From contig NZ_AP024851.1 of assembly GCF_024346675.1 (NCBI RefSeq), forward strand, positions 682,001 to 746,000: 64,000 bases of DNA, in the 5' to 3' direction. Shown here piece after piece: positions 4,028 through 55,577 of this stretch. The position numbers were made by a program, and so were the translations under genes. Under the pieces are notes generated by a model. The model was not told the origin of the DNA. It saw only the letters and a list, made by a program, of their open reading frames with translations, and searched no databases. Source of the DNA: Photobacterium sanguinicancri. Its GTDB lineage: Bacteria; Pseudomonadota; Gammaproteobacteria; Enterobacterales; Vibrionaceae. Each line of letters opens with the position of its first letter. The stretch's first letter is position 1.

Positions 4028-4199
4028 GCTTATAATGTGAGGTTATCACTGTTTACTGATGTGTCAGTAATTGTATTTGGGCTCAAGATCAAAAATTAAA
4101 AGTGAAAGATGAATCGCAAAATCATTGAGTATTTCTCTTGCGCACTCTGTTTTATAGTAATTTGATTACTGTAAGTTCAGTGAAAAGAGAAACATTACC

Positions 4200-4361
4200 A
4201 TGAAATGGTTATTTGATTTTAAAGGAATGAAAACGCGCTATAAGATCATAAAAAAACAGCATAGTTATTTTCTTTATGAACGAAAATTTTTATGCTTGTG
4301 GAGGACAGATGGCTGCGTTTATCAATCAAAACATGATGCGAGTAGTGCTATTCCGTATTAA
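4200..4361 (+). CDS. Possible small protein (53 aa)
   Basis: ATG at 4200 to TAA at 4359-4361. The product is short, basic and rich in aromatic residues: it begins MKWLFDFKGMKTRYKIIKK and later reads FLCLWRTDGCVYQSKHDAS. An AAGAGAA purine stretch lies just upstream, and a bidirectional terminator follows at 4396. The pattern of a 'YKIIKK...Y..YERKFL.LW' core followed by 'SKHDA' recalls short uncharacterised Vibrionaceae proteins, but I cannot name a family. Confidence 0.5.
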   Translation: MKWLFDFKGMKTRYKIIKKQHSYFLYERKFLCLWRTDGCVYQSKHDASSAIPY

Positions 4362-4395
4362 TTCTAGTTCAGCACTAAGCTCTTTATACTATATC

Positions 4396-4429
4396 AAAAT
4401 TCCCTGGTGCTAAGCGCCCAGGGAATTTT
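4396..4429. terminator. Bidirectional terminator between the 53-aa gene and brnQ
   Basis: A perfect 12-bp stem AAAATTCCCTGG/CCAGGGAATTTT with a 10-base loop. It has a T-run on the plus side and an A-run that becomes a T-run on the minus side, so it can end transcripts from both directions. Confidence 0.85.
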
Positions 4430-4443
4430 TTATAACTGTAGTA

Positions 4444-5754
4444 TTAAGCAGTGCATGTTTTACGCTGCTCAAAGAACGAATAAGCAGAATTAAACACAAG
4501 GACTAACAAGCAAGGTAATAACCAGCTTGCATGTGCGCTATAGAGTGGAAGTGTATCTGTTAATTGCTCATGCATTGCCGTTGGCATTAGCTCTAAAATA
4601 GCAAGAGCATCCACAGCACCAAACACTAATGTCACCACTAAAACGCTTACATGGCTAGGCTTGATCGCTTCATTGATTGAGCCAACAAAAGACGCCATAA
4701 CCAGTGCAATAGCTATTGGGCACAATAGAAGAATGGCAGGTAAGCTGACTTGGATAATCTGTGCTAAGCCAAAATTTGCGACGACACAGGTTAGAGTCAC
4801 AACAATGATTGAAGTGAGTGCAAAAGGTGCTTTGAACGATGAGCGATAATATTCGGCGCTAGCATTCGTGAGACCAACAGTTGTGGTTAGACACGCCATA
4901 ATGATGATAGCAGCCAGTAAAACTTGGCCATATTCACCAAAAATACCATGAACATAAAGTGTGAGAATTTCACCACCATTGGTAGCACCGTTTGCAATAG
5001 TACTTGCTGTTGCTCCTACGTAACCCATAGCCAGATAACAAGCGCCCATTAGAACCGCATAAATTCCAGCTACATAAAGAGACACTCGAGCCACATCTTT
5101 AGGGGCTGTTACGCCTTTAGCATTAATCGCTTGAATGATCACCCAGCCAAAGCCAACAGCAGCAATCCCATCCATAGTCATGTAGCCTTGAATTAAGCCA
5201 TGTGTAACTGCACTGTTTTGGTAATCAGCACTTGGCATTTGAGGCACGCCTAATGGTGATGTAATTGCTGCAACAGAAAGCGCGATTAACATTAAGATCA
5301 ATGTTGGTGTCATGAATTTACCAATATAATCGACGAGTTTTCCTGGTGTAAAAGCCAACAATAGAGTGGCGCCACAAAAGATAAGGGTAAAAATAAGCAG
5401 GTAGTCGCCATCGACAAAAGGTTTTATACCCATCTCATAAGCAACGGTCACAGCCCTAGGCATACCAAAAGCGGGGCCGATAGAAGTGAACAGCAGTACC
5501 CAAAAGGTTTTCCCAAGCCAAGGCGGTAGGGCTTTTGTGAGGTTATTTGTATTCGTGATACGTCCTAATACAATTAGGGTAAATGCTGGCAGGCCAACGG
5601 CTGTGATTAAGAACCCCACCATAGCTGGCAGTAAATTTGTTCCTGCTTCGAGCCCCATTGAGGGTGGGAAGATCAGGTTACCTGCACCAAGGAAAAGGGC
5701 AAATGTCATTAAGCCTATGGCGAGTAAATCTTGTGTTTTCAATGCTGTATTCAT
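4444..5754 (-). CDS. brnQ: Branched-chain amino acid importer BrnQ (copy with Ile-rich leader)
   Basis: A 436-residue LIVCS-family carrier with about 12 membrane helices. The N-terminus 'MTFALFLGAGNLIFPPSMG' and 'GPAFGMPRAVTVAYEMG' are hallmarks of BrnQ, a sodium- or proton-coupled importer of Leu, Ile and Val. AGGAC lies 7 bases before the ATG. The adjacent paralogue (6228-7529) shares the same motifs, so this is a tandem duplication, but the copies have diverged considerably. A leader peptide with five consecutive Ile codons lies about 120 bases upstream, which suggests control by charged tRNA-Ile. Confidence 0.92.
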   Translation of the reverse strand: MNTALKTQDLLAIGLMTFALFLGAGNLIFPPSMGLEAGTNLLPAMVGFLITAVGLPAFTLIVLGRITNTNNLTKALPPWLGKTFWVLLFTSIGPAFGMPRAVTVAYEMGIKPFVDGDYLLIFTLIFCGATLLLAFTPGKLVDYIGKFMTPTLILMLIALSVAAITSPLGVPQMPSADYQNSAVTHGLIQGYMTMDGIAAVGFGWVIIQAINAKGVTAPKDVARVSLYVAGIYAVLMGACYLAMGYVGATASTIANGATNGGEILTLYVHGIFGEYGQVLLAAIIIMACLTTTVGLTNASAEYYRSSFKAPFALTSIIVVTLTCVVANFGLAQIIQVSLPAILLLCPIAIALVMASFVGSINEAIKPSHVSVLVVTLVFGAVDALAILELMPTAMHEQLTDTLPLYSAHASWLLPCLLVLVFNSAYSFFEQRKTCTA

Positions 5755-49215: not shown

Positions 49216-49249
49216 GAAAAGAAAAGGCGATAGTTCGCCTTTTCTTTTT
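49216..49249. terminator. Bidirectional terminator after the DUF1704 gene
   Basis: An 11-bp stem AGAAAAGGCGA/TCGCCTTTTCT with loop TAGT, with T-runs on both strands. It lies 37 bases past the DUF1704 stop. Confidence 0.85.
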
Positions 49250-49286: not shown

Positions 49287-51269
49287 TTAACGGATAGAGT
49301 TCAATAAGAAGTCCATCACAGGATCTGGCTTTGTTTCTAGCGTTAATGCTTTTGGCATGTAGGCTGGTTTTTGCAAGATATCACGTGCAATCAGTTCTTC
49401 TATCAACGGCTTAAATTCGAAGCCTGTTTTGCCGACAAACAGTGATGTTAGATCTTGTTCATGATAACAGTGCAACGCATCTTTTAAGCCACGTAAGTAG
49501 AGGAAGTCTTTAGTAAAGCCACCGCCACGGTATACGCGTGCTGTTATTGTGAATGCATCGTCATCAGACAATTTATAATCTAGCTTTAATGCTTGGAACG
49601 TATCACCAAAGCTTTCACCGTTAACCATTTTATCAACCGCGATAACACGTAATGCTAGCGTTTTTAAACGATGCAATGGGAAACTACCTGAAAGGTGCTC
49701 ACAAAGTATCGCTAAACCTTCTTGCGTATGGGTGTTACCAGGTAAACCCAGTTTAAGCACTTTTAACGGTTGGTTATCCGCATTTACGCTGGTGACTAAG
49801 TGTACGCCTAATTCGTGTTGAATAAGGGCATCTAAATCACGCTCTGTAAAAGTACTATTTACGTTTACTTTAATGCTACGACCGCTAACCATCGCCCTTG
49901 CAATCAGGGTTTTAGAGCTCACCACGTTACACTTTAGGCCGTAATCCGCTGCTGCCGCTTTAAAAGCTGCAATGGCATCTTTTGCGTTAAGTGTTGCTGG
50001 CTCTTTTTCTTGATATTCACAAGCATGAAGAATGAACTTCGCGTTGGCGATATCACGGTCATCTGGCTGCCCATAGTAGCGTAATGAGTTATACAAAAAC
50101 TCATCTGTACCAATGCTCGTTAGCAAATCGATACGCACAGCAAGTTGATCAATCGTTTTGCGGTACATTTTTTGAATGTCAGCATCACGAATATCTTCAA
50201 CGGGCAAGCGATATAGCTGCTCACGGAACTTGTATGGGTCAAGATCCAGTTGGCGATACGTAAACGTAGGTTGGTACGTAAACGGTTTATGTAAGAATCG
50301 ACGTTTCTCTTGCTTCAAGTTCGTTGGGTTAATGTAACTTAATGTATTAACACCACGAGCAATAGAATATAGCTGACGATCCAGTTTTAGTACTTCTCTT
50401 GGCAATTTAGAAGCCAGAATTGTACTGCTTGTTAGGCGCTTAACTTTGGTCTTACGACGTAGAGTGAAGGCAGCATGTTCCGTAACAACGGTTTTCATTG
50501 CTTCTTTCATTTTTTCAATAACAAGTGGGAAGCTTTCGCCCCCAACTTCGTTCATGAAAATTTTCTTCACTTCGATCGGTAAAATTAACGTCTTTTTAAA
50601 ATGCTGTTTAACAAAGTTAGCTTGGTAACCCATGCCTTTGAATACATCATTTTCTTTTGCTGAAACAACAATGTTTGGCAATTCAACGCTGTTAAGTTGA
50701 TTTAAGCATTCATCAATGTCTTTACGCCACAGCTTTTTATTGATCTGTTGCGTACCTAAATTGAAGGTTGGCGTTTCGTTTTCGATACGCTGGTAATTGT
50801 ATGAATGCACATCATAAATTAAGCAAAGACCAAATTTATTCTCTAGCGCTTCAATAAGGCATTTCAAAATACGGTAATATTTTGCATGCTTATCAAGTGA
50901 TACTGCTTTTTCTGCATCTGTCAGTGGGGTAGACCAAACGTCTTTTCCCCAAGCTTGATCATAAATGCATTGATCATTTGAACGGTTAAGATCGTACTCA
51001 TAACGAGAATCTTCACCTTGCAAAATGATCGGTAACGAAGAAATAAAGTCACCTGTGAAAGGGTCTTCTTCGTAGTAACGTTCTTCTTCGGTTAACTCAC
51101 ACTTGCTCATTAACTCGGTACGAAAGCGATGACCATGGTGAATAGCTGTCGCAATGTATGGCTGATATTCGCTGATGCGAATCGTTAAGCTGCCGTCATT
51201 AAGTTGCGCTTCGAATGGAACGAGGTGCTGGATCTTATCCAGCACCTCCTGCTCAGTAAGCTGTAGCAT
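49287..51269 (-). CDS. DUF1704 (QEGLA motif) metallopeptidase with N-formylglutamate amidohydrolase-like domain
   Basis: 660 residues. The N-terminal part (about 20-240) resembles N-formylglutamate amidohydrolase ('IATAIHHGHRF', 'YEYDLNRSNDQCIY', 'CLIYDVHSYNYQR'). The C-terminal part (about 300-640) is DUF1704, with zinc motif HELGVH (H485, E486, H490) and E517 in 'HTQEGLAIL'. In animals the DUF1704 proteins MATCAP are carboxypeptidases that remove the terminal Tyr of tubulin. Bacterial members are annotated as flavohaemoglobin-modulating proteins, and their substrates are unknown. The gene overlaps the upstream ATP-grasp gene by 17 bases, so the two act together. Confidence 0.88.
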   Translation of the reverse strand: MLQLTEQEVLDKIQHLVPFEAQLNDGSLTIRISEYQPYIATAIHHGHRFRTELMSKCELTEEERYYEEDPFTGDFISSLPIILQGEDSRYEYDLNRSNDQCIYDQAWGKDVWSTPLTDAEKAVSLDKHAKYYRILKCLIEALENKFGLCLIYDVHSYNYQRIENETPTFNLGTQQINKKLWRKDIDECLNQLNSVELPNIVVSAKENDVFKGMGYQANFVKQHFKKTLILPIEVKKIFMNEVGGESFPLVIEKMKEAMKTVVTEHAAFTLRRKTKVKRLTSSTILASKLPREVLKLDRQLYSIARGVNTLSYINPTNLKQEKRRFLHKPFTYQPTFTYRQLDLDPYKFREQLYRLPVEDIRDADIQKMYRKTIDQLAVRIDLLTSIGTDEFLYNSLRYYGQPDDRDIANAKFILHACEYQEKEPATLNAKDAIAAFKAAAADYGLKCNVVSSKTLIARAMVSGRSIKVNVNSTFTERDLDALIQHELGVHLVTSVNADNQPLKVLKLGLPGNTHTQEGLAILCEHLSGSFPLHRLKTLALRVIAVDKMVNGESFGDTFQALKLDYKLSDDDAFTITARVYRGGGFTKDFLYLRGLKDALHCYHEQDLTSLFVGKTGFEFKPLIEELIARDILQKPAYMPKALTLETKPDPVMDFLLNSIR

Positions 51270-52281
51270 CGGCGATAACCTTACGGAACTCGTTCTTCCG
51301 TGTAATGCTCACTTCTTTTGCTACAACAACGCTTTCAACGAAATCTAAAACATCACGTTGTAACTTAGTGCGGTTCAGGCGGTTAATACGTGTAATACCG
51401 CCAGGGCTTAGTACGTTTACTTCAACCAGTTTGCCGTTGATTACATCAAGGCCAACAAAGTAAAGGCCATCGCGCACTAATTTAGGGCCGATGTGCTTAC
51501 AAAGACGCAGTTCTTGCTTGGTTAATACGTGCTTAACTTCTTTACCACCTGCGTGGATGTTAGAACGTACATCACCTTGCGCTGGAACACGGCGCATAGC
51601 ACCAATAGGTTCGCCGTTTAGCATCATGATGCGAACGTCGCCTAGTTCTGCGCCTTCGATGTAATCTTGTAGAATTACATAGTTCTGGTCGTCACCAATG
51701 TAGAAGTCCAGTAGTGATTTCACGCTTGATTTCGCGCTTTTCTCTACAAGGATTACACCTTTACCGCCGTAGCCATTAAGTGGCTTAAGGATCATGCGGT
51801 CGTTAGTGTTTTCGTCTAGTACACGTTCTAGGTACTCGCGGTTCTTAGACACGTGAGTTACTGGAATAAATTCGTTTTGTGGATCAGGTAGTGATGCGGT
51901 GTATAGCTTGTTGTTTGCTACACGTAGGCCATCAATATCGTTCATGATGAAAGTGTCATCACGTACTGAGTCCAAGAAGTTCAATGCCATTGTGTCTAGT
52001 GGCGGGTTTGCACGCATGAAGATAACGTCAAAACCAGCTAGTGGCAGTTGTGCTTTTGTAAATTCAGCTTTTTTATAAAAACTTGGAATATTGCTAGAGA
52101 CTTCTTTGTTCTTTAATACATTACAAAAAGCGATAGCCATGCTGTCGCGCATTGTAAGGTTATTAGGCGTTGTAATAGCAACCGTGTGACCACGAGCTGC
52201 GGCTTCATGAATTAGGCGTAGTGTTGAGTCATTTTCTGGTTCAACACGATCCCACGGGTACATAACAAAACAAATTTTCAT
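51253..52281 (-). CDS. ATP-grasp ligase related to glutathione synthetase
   Basis: 342 residues with the GshB-like order: an N-terminal domain ('MKICFVMYPWDRVEPENDST', 'DVIFMRANPPLD'), the ATP-grasp part 'MILKPLNGYGGKGVILVE' (about 163-180), 'VLQDYIEGAELGDVRIMML' and the Mg-binding end 'VEVNVLSPGGITRIN'. It would probably be auto-annotated as glutathione synthase, but the genuine gshB normally sits in another context. The overlap with a DUF1704 peptidase gene suggests a dedicated ligase that adds a residue to some peptide or thiol. First gene of the pair. Confidence 0.85.
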   Translation of the reverse strand: MKICFVMYPWDRVEPENDSTLRLIHEAAARGHTVAITTPNNLTMRDSMAIAFCNVLKNKEVSSNIPSFYKKAEFTKAQLPLAGFDVIFMRANPPLDTMALNFLDSVRDDTFIMNDIDGLRVANNKLYTASLPDPQNEFIPVTHVSKNREYLERVLDENTNDRMILKPLNGYGGKGVILVEKSAKSSVKSLLDFYIGDDQNYVILQDYIEGAELGDVRIMMLNGEPIGAMRRVPAQGDVRSNIHAGGKEVKHVLTKQELRLCKHIGPKLVRDGLYFVGLDVINGKLVEVNVLSPGGITRINRLNRTKLQRDVLDFVESVVVAKEVSITRKNEFRKVIADATAY

Positions 52282-52401: not shown

Positions 52402-52740
52402 TTAATAATCGAGGTCGTCCCCGCCAGAATCATCATCGAATGACTGGCCCTGCTTACGTACCGATGAGCATAAGGTGTAACTTTTCACTTTATTGCAGGT
52501 ACGATTGAGGTATTTCACCCAACACTTTGCAAAATCAGATTGAACAGTCAGTTGGCCACTTGTTTCAGCGACAAATTGACGTTCAATTTCACTCATTGGT
52601 TCGATTTCGCCTGAGTACAGACGGGACATTGTTCGGCCATAATTCTCTAGCAGGGTGGATTCAGAAATTGTGAAAACACCTGAGCGATTAAAGCCGCGTG
52701 GGAAATTTTTATCGTCGTAAAATTTACCTTCACTTCTCAT
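52402..52740 (-). CDS. maoP: Macrodomain Ori protein MaoP (DUF413, YifE)
   Basis: 112 residues. 'FYDDKNFPRGFNRSGVFTISESTLLENYG' at the start matches YifE/DUF413, and the acidic tail ('DDDSGGDDLDY') is also typical. In E. coli MaoP acts with the nearby maoS site to organise the Ori macrodomain. It is divergent from hdfR, exactly as in E. coli, which supports the call. The window is therefore probably near the replication origin if gene order is conserved. Confidence 0.9.
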   Translation of the reverse strand: MRSEGKFYDDKNFPRGFNRSGVFTISESTLLENYGRTMSRLYSGEIEPMSEIERQFVAETSGQLTVQSDFAKCWVKYLNRTCNKVKSYTLCSSVRKQGQSFDDDSGGDDLDY

Positions 52741-52909: not shown

Positions 52910-53770
52910 GTGGATACCGAATTACTTAAAACATTTCTTGAGGTTACAAAAACACGTCACTTTGGTCGTGCGGCAGATAATTTGTATCTAACGCAGTCCG
53001 CTGTGAGTTTCCGTATCCGTCAATTAGAGAGTCAGTTAGGCAATCCTTTATTTTCTCGCCAGCGTGGCAACGTGCATTTAACGCCGGCTGGAGAGCGTTT
53101 ACAGCCCTATGCAGAAGCGATTTTGCAAACATGGGGTAGGGCAAAACAGGATGTGGCGTTAACCGACAGCTTAAATTCGCAAATCTCAGTGGGTGCATCG
53201 CCTATGTTTTGGGAATTTGACGGCATTTCTGAGTGGATAAACCGCATCTACGCGGCAATACCAGGCTTGGCTTTACGTCTTGAATCTGTGCCTCGTCAAA
53301 GTATGGCGAAACGCCTTTTTGATAAAAGCGTTGATATCTCATTAACATGTGAGCCGCCACGTATTGAAAGCATGCAAGTAAAGAAAGTCCGTGAATTCCA
53401 ATTACAGTTAGTAAGCCATAGACCAAACTGTTCTTTGGCTGATGCTAAAGATTTACCTTTGGTGTATTTGGATTGGGGGACACGATTTTCTGTAGAGCAC
53501 AGTCGTGTGATTGAATTGGATAAGACGCCTATTCTGCATACGCATTCAAGCAAAATGGCGCAGGAATATATTCTGAATAACCCAAGTATGGGTTACTTAC
53601 CTTCACCCGTTGTTGCACAAAGTGTTGAAGATGGGCTACTACATCTTGTTGACGGTGCACCAGTAATGGAGCAGCAACTTTACCTTGTGTGGAGTGAAGA
53701 TAACGAAAAAACAGAGCTTATTTCGAGCATGCTTGATGTGCCATTTTCCAGTGTTATCGAGAGAGTTTAA
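52910..53770 (+). CDS. hdfR: LysR-family regulator HdfR
   Basis: 286 residues, GTG start with GATGAG 9 bases upstream. The N-terminal winged helix ('LLKTFLEVTKTRHFGRAADNLYLTQSAVSFRIRQLE') and the LysR substrate domain are intact. The position opposite maoP matches E. coli hdfR, a regulator that represses flagellar flhDC and affects other genes. The target set in this organism is not visible here. Confidence 0.9.
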   Translation: MDTELLKTFLEVTKTRHFGRAADNLYLTQSAVSFRIRQLESQLGNPLFSRQRGNVHLTPAGERLQPYAEAILQTWGRAKQDVALTDSLNSQISVGASPMFWEFDGISEWINRIYAAIPGLALRLESVPRQSMAKRLFDKSVDISLTCEPPRIESMQVKKVREFQLQLVSHRPNCSLADAKDLPLVYLDWGTRFSVEHSRVIELDKTPILHTHSSKMAQEYILNNPSMGYLPSPVVAQSVEDGLLHLVDGAPVMEQQLYLVWSEDNEKTELISSMLDVPFSSVIERV

Positions 53771-54312: not shown

Positions 54313-54372
54313 GTAGCCGTGTACCGTCCTAAATATGGTTGACACATTTCCAACATGAAATTGGAGAGTGTC

Positions 54373-54774
54373 ATGAAAACAACAAGTAGACGTACTCAAC
54401 GAGATTATTCTCTTGCCTTTAAATTGGCAGTCGTAAGCCAAGTTGAAAAAGGCGAAATGACTTATAAGCAAGCTCAAGAGCGTTATGGGATCCAAGGTCG
54501 CTCTACCGTTTTAGTTTGGCTTCGCAAACATGGTCAACTAGATTGGTCTAAAGGAATAGAACAATCGAGAGCGTTAGGAGCGACTATGTCAAACCCTTCC
54601 TCAACTCAAACCCCAGAGCAACGAATCAAAGAACTCGAGCAGCAATTGGAAGAGACTCAGCTCAAAGCTGAGTTCTTTGAAGCGGTAGTAAAAGTCATGG
54701 ATCGAGATTTCGGTGTCCGAATCTCAAAGAAGCGCAAGGCCGAGTTATTAAGGAAAAAACGGTCAGAAAGTTGA
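54373..54774 (+). CDS. IS3-family transposase OrfA
   Basis: 133 residues from the ATG at 54373, which has GGAG 8 bases before it; an ATG at 54355 in frame is less likely. A helix-turn-helix ('GEMTYKQAQERYGIQGRSTVLVWLRKHG' region) is followed by a coiled coil ('RIKELEQQLEETQLKAEFFE'). It overlaps orfB by four bases and is preceded by an A-run (GGAAAAAAC) suitable for frameshifting. Confidence 0.9.
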   Translation: MKTTSRRTQRDYSLAFKLAVVSQVEKGEMTYKQAQERYGIQGRSTVLVWLRKHGQLDWSKGIEQSRALGATMSNPSSTQTPEQRIKELEQQLEETQLKAEFFEAVVKVMDRDFGVRISKKRKAELLRKKRSES

Positions 54775-55577
54775 CCGTCACTAAAGCTTGTCACTTCATA
54801 GGTATTACACGACAAGCTTTCTACAAGCGCTGTGTTGCAGAAATTCATCAAACAAAGAAAGATGAATCAGTACTCGGTTTTGTGAAGGAGCAAAGGATGA
54901 TGCACCCTCGTATAGGGACTCGTAAGATCAAGTATTTACTTGCTCAGAACGATATTGAAATCGGGCGAGACCGCTTATTCTCTCTGTTGAGAATGAATCG
55001 ATTATTAGTGCAAAATCGAAGGGCTTATCATCGAACCACAAACAGTAATCATCGCTTTTACTGCCATCCAAATCGAATCAAAGAAGGCTTAATACCGGAA
55101 AGACCAGAGCAATTATGGGTTGCCGATATTACTTATCTAGCAACGCGACGTGGTAGTACTTATCTCAGTTTAGTGACGGACGCTTACTCAAGAAAAATCG
55201 TGGGCTATCACATAGGTGATGATATGAAAGCTCGCACGGTCAAGCAGGCCTTTTTAAACGCGTTGAAAGAGCGGAAGAATACAGGTGAGCTTGTTCATCA
55301 CTCAGATCGAGGTGTTCAGTACTGCTCTGTTGAATACCAAGAGTTGCATCGACAGTATGATGTATCTTGCTCAATGACTGATGGCTATGACTGTTATCAG
55401 AATGCGTTGGCAGAGAGGATCAACGGAATACTGAAGATGGAGTATCTGTTGAATAAGCCGAATGATTTAGATGAAGCAAAGAAAATGGTCGCCGAATCAG
55501 TAAAAATCTATAATGAATATAGGCCTCACACAGCTCTAAAATACAAAACGCCCGATGAAATACATCGAGCGTTTTAG
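54771..55577 (+). CDS. IS3-family transposase OrfB (integrase core)
   Basis: 268 residues. The DDE core is complete: 'LWVADITYLAT', 'LVHHSDRGVQYCS' and 'CYQNALAERINGILKMEYLL'. As a separate product it starts at TTG 54771, but the normal form is probably OrfAB made by -1 frameshifting. It ends in 'YNEYRPHTALKYKTPDEIH', typical of the family. Confidence 0.92.
   Translation: MTVTKACHFIGITRQAFYKRCVAEIHQTKKDESVLGFVKEQRMMHPRIGTRKIKYLLAQNDIEIGRDRLFSLLRMNRLLVQNRRAYHRTTNSNHRFYCHPNRIKEGLIPERPEQLWVADITYLATRRGSTYLSLVTDAYSRKIVGYHIGDDMKARTVKQAFLNALKERKNTGELVHHSDRGVQYCSVEYQELHRQYDVSCSMTDGYDCYQNALAERINGILKMEYLLNKPNDLDEAKKMVAESVKIYNEYRPHTALKYKTPDEIHRAF

Follow-up and report, generated by a model that had tools for sequence, protein, structure and literature searches.

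In a 64,000-nucleotide stretch of the Photobacterium sanguinicancri genome (assembly GCF_024346675.1, contig NZ_AP024851.1, positions 682,001 to 746,000; hereafter the window), two overlapping minus-strand genes encode an ATP-grasp ligase and a protein that fuses an N-formylglutamate amidohydrolase (FGase) domain to a DUF1704/MATCAP domain. The operon looks like the union of one enzyme seemingly built to attach an amino acid and two zinc enzymes seemingly built to remove one. A preliminary description of this DNA had read a GshB-like ATP-grasp gene overlapping by 17 bases a DUF1704 gene with intact HELGVH and QEGLA motifs and an FGase-like fusion partner. Open reading frames, profiles and alignments bear out each of these parts, which are (window coordinates):

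51253 to 52281, minus strand: ATP-grasp ligase gene, GshB/RimK-type, NF009110/PRK12458 subfamily, 342 residues, 5' member of the overlapping pair (open reading frame, Pfam/NCBIfam)
51397 to 51405, minus strand: Pro-Gly-Gly at ligase residues 293-295, following Glu/Asn in the ATP site
51253 to 51269, minus strand: 17 bases in which the end of the ligase gene overlaps the start of the fusion gene
49287 to 51269, minus strand: fusion gene, 660 residues, FGase domain (1-285) plus MATCAP/DUF1704 domain (about 310-660) (open reading frame, Pfam/NCBIfam, structure model and comparison)
50415 to 51269, minus strand: FGase domain, fusion residues 1-285
49296 to 50300, minus strand: DUF1704/MATCAP carboxypeptidase domain, Pfam match to residues 324-658
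49800 to 49817, minus strand: HELGVH zinc motif, residues 485-490
49710 to 49724, minus strand: QEGLA motif, residues 516-520

The overlap likely couples translation of the two genes. At 100% identity, the fusion protein matches one of P. sanguinicancri. The C-terminal domain of the fusion scores 369 bits against PF08014 (cut-off 27) and 467 bits against TIGR02421 (cut-off 339). In 76 aligned rows, H485, E486 and H490 of HELGVH and Q516, E517, G518 and A520 of QEGLA are invariant, and the two motifs align with HEIGTH and EEGLA of human MATCAP. Comparison of structure models assigns the MATCAP fold to this domain: of the 313 rows from the Foldseek search with the window model, the 50 listed did not include MATCAP, which came first in a second comparison. 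We predict that the domain is a carboxypeptidase that trims C-terminal ends. Its partner shows the PF05013 profile, the FGase fold and the conserved H / E-D / H pattern, here H44, E68-D69 and D153-x-H155, presumably the metal and catalytic residues, judging from conservation and from what is known of the family. In the model, its structure resembles those of M14 carboxypeptidases, of succinylglutamate desuccinylase and of poly-gamma-glutamate hydrolase. It is not an equivalog of HutG, the N-formylglutamate deformylase, since it reaches 14.5 bits against TIGR02017, for which the cut-off is 279.

The ligase carries GSH-S_N and GSH-S_ATP domains (PF02951 and PF02955) in a Pfam scan. It scores 287 bits against the glutathione synthase profile NF003573 (cut-off 272), 241 bits against the GshB equivalog TIGR01380 (cut-off 299), 82 bits against TIGR00768 (RimK; cut-off 143), so that it falls outside the RimK type, and 20.7 bits against TIGR02291, used to probe a RimK/RloC type (cut-off 314). 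It matches E. coli GshB (1gsa) at 131.7 bits and is identical to the GshB of its own genome at 96 of 307 positions, with the loop residues of that alignment largely kept. Behind a Glu/Asn pair that we take to bind metal, Pro-Gly-Gly is invariant in 33 of 33 aligned rows and occurs in 119 of 120 homologues (the pattern gave no match in the remaining one); this ATP-site position reads Pro-Thr-Cys in the genome's own GshB and Pro-Gly-Leu in its own RimK. The preliminary description had tied the ligase to tubulin tyrosine ligase (TTL). This kinship is rejected: the TTL profile PF03133 is not among the eight Pfam families matched to E = 1 (GSH-S_ATP, GSH-S_N, RimK and others), a scan in which HMMER filters drop most hits above 0.1, and both the identity to GshB and the RimK-like Pro-Gly speak for other relatives. 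Nor is the ligase the only glutathione synthase of its genome, a possibility that would have undone the earlier proposal, because a textbook gshB lies on the other contig (493 bits against NF003573, 470 against TIGR01380). Elsewhere, two tandem ligase genes lie beside DUF1704 (L062:1838-3980 in genome G146; L063:1445-3549 in G165), and one copy per pair lacks conserved ATP-site residues, as if an active/inactive pair had formed.

Linkage of the ligase to DUF1704 is tight. In three samples taken together, with three shared entries removed, the ligase subfamily stands beside a DUF1704 gene in 74 of 77 distinct genomes, and in 71 of 72 when only ligases over the curated cut-off are counted; co-conservation of the pair, on which the preliminary description also depended, thus holds. 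NF009110 was found in 16 of 276 genomes of the class sample (E-value limit 1e-100), 14 of them with TIGR02421, always adjacent (14/14); in 55 of 150 genomes of the family sample (1e-90), all 55 with TIGR02421 and 54 with the two genes adjacent, ligase first, on the same strand; and in 9 of 259 genomes of the phylum sample (1e-90), adjacent to TIGR02421 in 9/9. Adjacency was scored by eye from coordinates in the class and phylum samples and by script in the family sample; the samples overlap (G000, G310), and Vibrionaceae make up 55 of the 77 ligase genomes. The exceptions are G172 and G187, which have no TIGR02421, and G401, where ligase and DUF1704 are 52.6 kb apart. The genes come either fused, as in the window, or as three separate genes, and the trio turns up again in bacteria that are only distant relatives. 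Across 18 distant loci, no cluster of open reading frames was shared by more than three besides FGase/DUF1704 (16) and the ligase (12 under this picking of reading frames); the RIO1-like kinase, esterase and DsbD-like neighbours of the window were not searched for there.

Several loci vary on this theme. In type II DUF1704 proteins (L066:7297-9171 and others), the N-terminal stretch of about 268 residues is a remote FGase relative without catalytic motifs, and a separate FGase gene with these motifs lies beside the DUF1704 gene. Genome G511 holds three copies of the ligase/DUF1704 unit (L136, L137, L138), of which L138 lacks an FGase over the stretch read and L136 is truncated by a contig end. 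A standalone DUF1704 gene, with no FGase or NF009110-type ligase, faces RimK-like and probable RimB-like genes, named by eye, in G135 (L042:1456-4109).

Loss of the ligase goes together with decay of the FGase. TIGR02421 occurs in 101 of 321 Vibrionaceae genomes (90% completeness). Among 100 FGase-bearing loci, 87 have the ligase and an intact FGase, 12 lack the ligase and have a broken FGase, one (G653) has the ligase with a broken FGase, and none has an intact FGase without the ligase. The breaks differ among loci (Arg, Thr or Tyr in place of His155, or no motif left), while HExxxH and QEGLA of DUF1704 are kept in all 12 ligase-less loci. On the tree, a "quick" one that came with a warning of long branches, five changes of ligase state and six of FGase state are needed. 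Here the ligase counts as present if phmmer matches the window ligase to a protein of the locus, and the FGase may lie some kb off (L137). A whole-genome search shows the ligase to be absent for nine of the 12 loci and for G808; for G280 and G344 this absence comes from the family sample and for G089 from the class sample. The comparison covers neither G401 (partly masked), nor L173 (no ligase, a broken FGase motif and DUF1704 spread across two frames), nor L063, L065, L135, L136 and L138, which have no readable FGase, nor standalone DUF1704 forms. From the shared losses and the retained DUF1704 motifs, FGase activity seems to be needed mainly where the ligase is, and DUF1704 seems to have a further role without the other two. 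The unit is the trio of ligase, FGase and DUF1704.

A physiological lead comes from published data. In the tables of an RNA-seq study of P. damselae at 1% versus 3% NaCl (PMC10308900), from which we took the locus tags, a "GshB" gene (RS17020) is up 38.4-fold and a QEGLA gene (RS17025) 27.5-fold; RimK is up 52-fold. The two tags are consecutive on chromosome II, and the study discusses the ligase as GshB. Because of tag order, replicon, names and the way the genes are arranged in a second P. damselae strain (L014), we infer that RS17020 and RS17025 form an operon of the window type. In L014 a DUF2799 protein gene (4112-4732) lies beyond the LysR gene; it may, by tag order only, be the 18.6-fold induced "hypothetical" RS17005. 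In one genus (G502, G511) rloA-, rloB- and rloC-like genes come after the ligase gene. P. aeruginosa mutated in three RloA-type peptidases is reported to fail without salt and to be rescued by loss of RloB or RloC (PMC12239564). The G187 ligase relative, without DUF1704, lies near CorA-, MscS-like, RimK and DoeB-like genes. Pfam profiles, run on five genes of the window, show no retropepsin, and the operon genes scanned by Pfam and NCBIfam match neither a retropepsin nor RloB; the other window genes were not scanned.

Building on the three enzyme types with intact motifs, their linkage, the shared losses and the rise of both genes at low salt in one species, which come from sequence, structure model or published data, we propose a dedicated ligate-and-trim module that works like RimK/RimB and RloC/RloA and is tied to low osmolarity. 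We give this proposal a probability of about one half. The ATP-grasp enzyme, of GshB type with a RimK-like Pro-Gly, would spend ATP on joining an amino acid (glutamate, or else another small acidic residue, being the likeliest) to the carboxylate of a peptide, a protein tail or a small acyl-amino acid. The FGase domain would act on the substrate or product of the ligase, and the MATCAP-type domain would trim the C-terminal end, with its further role apart from ligase and FGase; ligase and peptidases would thereby work in opposite directions. Zinc peptidases would stand where RimK/RimB and RloC/RloA have retropepsins, and the module would serve adaptation to low osmolarity. The add-and-remove cycle of the preliminary description fits this proposal, with a separate gshB and a co-conserved pair; what falls away is the TTL kinship, so that the parallel with animals survives for the peptidase family and lapses for the ligase.

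Several observations weigh against the module. G172 and G187 hold a ligase, below the curated cut-off, without DUF1704, and in the class sample 29 of the 43 genomes with TIGR02421 have no such ligase at 1e-100. The shared losses come down to four independent pairs on well-supported branches (five on all branches); over 200 pairings an average of 3.8 of 4 concur with the pattern and none contradicts it, and 4-5 pairs are too few for the sign test to become significant (median p 0.125, range 0.125-0.25). The ligase of G653 (L140) accompanies a broken FGase, and that of L138 in G511 stands without an FGase over the 12.5 kb read, though an FGase lies about 2 kb from a second copy in that genome. 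The salt response is known from one species in one study. The rlo adjacency is confined to one genus, and the rloA-like (111 versus 210) and rloB-like (414 versus 900) genes score below curated cut-offs in G502, where the profiles were run. The literature searched yielded no account of a bacterial member catalysing a reaction.

A different use of the same enzymes is possible, if less probable than the module: the ligase would build a soluble acyl- or glutamyl-peptide (a thiol, osmolyte or storage compound), the FGase would remove the N-acyl or terminal group and DUF1704 would recycle the peptide, with no protein modified. However, the characterised DUF1704 enzymes found in the literature searched act on protein tails, and induction at low salt runs counter to the making of an osmolyte, although it would suit the clearing of one. 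For a thiol pathway no positive evidence turned up, and no dedicated test was made. That the database name is simply right, the ligase being a second glutathione synthase with an unrelated peptidase neighbour, would explain the NF003573 score, the match to 1gsa and the largely kept GshB loop residues; we hold it improbable given the canonical gshB (493 bits), the TIGR01380 score, the Pro-Gly-Gly in place of Pro-Thr and the DUF1704 linkage in 74 of 77 genomes. Very improbable, finally, is that DUF1704 proteins mainly modulate flavohemoglobin expression, as the NCBIfam name of TIGR02421 says, and that the ligase is incidental: in the literature searched this phrase was met only as an annotation in a table of one paper, and the zinc peptidase fold and motifs are conserved.

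Further genes and a hairpin surround the pair. On the minus strand the order of transcription is DUF413 gene, ligase gene, fusion gene, with a LysR gene divergent:

52402 to 52740, minus strand: DUF413 (MaoP-like) gene 5' of the ligase, acidic C-tail with -DDLDY end (PF04219, 110 bits)
52910 to 53770, plus strand: HdfR-type LysR regulator gene, divergent (NF002946, 252 bits, cut-off 240)
49217 to 49248, minus strand: terminator-like hairpin directly 3' of the fusion gene, 14 pairs, T-rich tail (consensus match only)

The scan that gave this hairpin found eight terminator-like sites in the region versus 4.1 expected, and no promoter-like site 5' of the DUF413 gene. HdfR-type LysR relatives lie near other clusters as well. 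Downstream of the LysR gene, two overlapping reading frames (54355-55577, plus strand) look by eye like an IS3-type transposase pair.

The DUF413 protein exceeds the PF04219 cut-off of 25 and stays below those of all seven NCBIfam PRK11027 models listed (best 104 versus 236). PF04219 has one match in 51 of 52 Photobacterium genomes and two in the remaining one. The variable, acidic C-tail has a conserved end, mostly D-[LIM]-D-[YIF], in 45 distinct Photobacterium proteins: the last residue is Y in 33, I in 6, F in 4 and another in 2; position -2 is D in 41, -3 is L, I or M in 44, and -4 is D in 40. The tail of alpha-tubulin, too, is acidic with Tyr at its end. In E. coli, MaoP is encoded divergently from hdfR and constrains the Ori region (PMC5023128). 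In a bolder reading, which we consider unlikely, DUF413 would be an operon-encoded substrate whose C-tail passes through a cycle run by the ligase and the MATCAP-type domain. Gene order and the near-universal single match in the genus favour it, as does a second copy in G297 (L226:2586-5915) with the same kind of tail (-DDDIDF), beside an MscS/MscK-like mechanosensitive-channel gene and then a RimB-like retropepsin gene (under cut-off). On its other side this copy has an mgtE-like gene. Yet the idea stays a hypothesis because Vibrio tails end otherwise; they remain acidic where the ligase was lost, so that acidity is rejected as a mark of the ligase. Furthermore, among the reading frames of the loci analysed, BLAST relatives of the window DUF413 protein occur only in Vibrionaceae, and Y, I or F at the C-terminus may instead signal degradation or PDZ binding. 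If the reading is true, bacteria would have their own version of the alpha-tubulin tail cycle, responsive to salt and directed at a protein related to one that organises the chromosome.

As far as the literature searched goes, the trio has not been described: we found nothing on glutathione synthetase and N-formylglutamate amidohydrolase in one operon. The neighbourhood may already appear in the amidoligase survey of Iyer et al. 2009. In a genotype-comparison table for V. vulnificus (PMC3091676), VV2_1203 (COG3930) and VV2_1204, "glutathione synthetase", appear in succession, the table offering no comment, and PRK12458 has been taken as GshB (PMC3462692). A recurrent module has in effect been filed as a "glutathione synthase" and a "flavohemoglobin expression-modulating" protein. 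This compact operon, low-salt-induced in one species, may help cells cope with low salt. If our proposal is right, it would be a third bacterial ATP-grasp/peptidase couple beside RimK/RimB and RloC/RloA, and its DUF1704 enzyme would offer a simple system for the family of the animal tubulin detyrosinases.

How does the trio compare with known systems? With GshB the ligase shares PF02951, PF02955 and the aligned ATP-site residues, but it stays under the TIGR01380 cut-off, has Pro-Gly-Gly for Pro-Thr-Cys, is linked to peptidases and coexists with a canonical gshB. The animal pair of MATCAP/TMCP and TTL (PMC10499314) differs in its ligase, as that of the window has no TTL match, and DUF1704 is here fused to, or encoded beside, an FGase. 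RimK/RimB, which polyglutamylates S6 and trims it, likewise places in one locus an ATP-grasp ligase and the peptidase that acts on what this ligase makes (PMC12239564), and shares the Pro-Gly motif; however, the window ligase belongs to GshB subfamily NF009110 and its peptidases are of zinc type (FGase, DUF1704), whereas RimB is a retropepsin. RloABC, of hypoosmotic tolerance in P. aeruginosa (PMC12239564), again joins an ATP-grasp protein to a counteracting peptidase, but with RloA predicted to be secreted and RloB a membrane protein; the two systems share the link to low osmolarity and, in one genus, rlo-like genes stand beside the trio itself.
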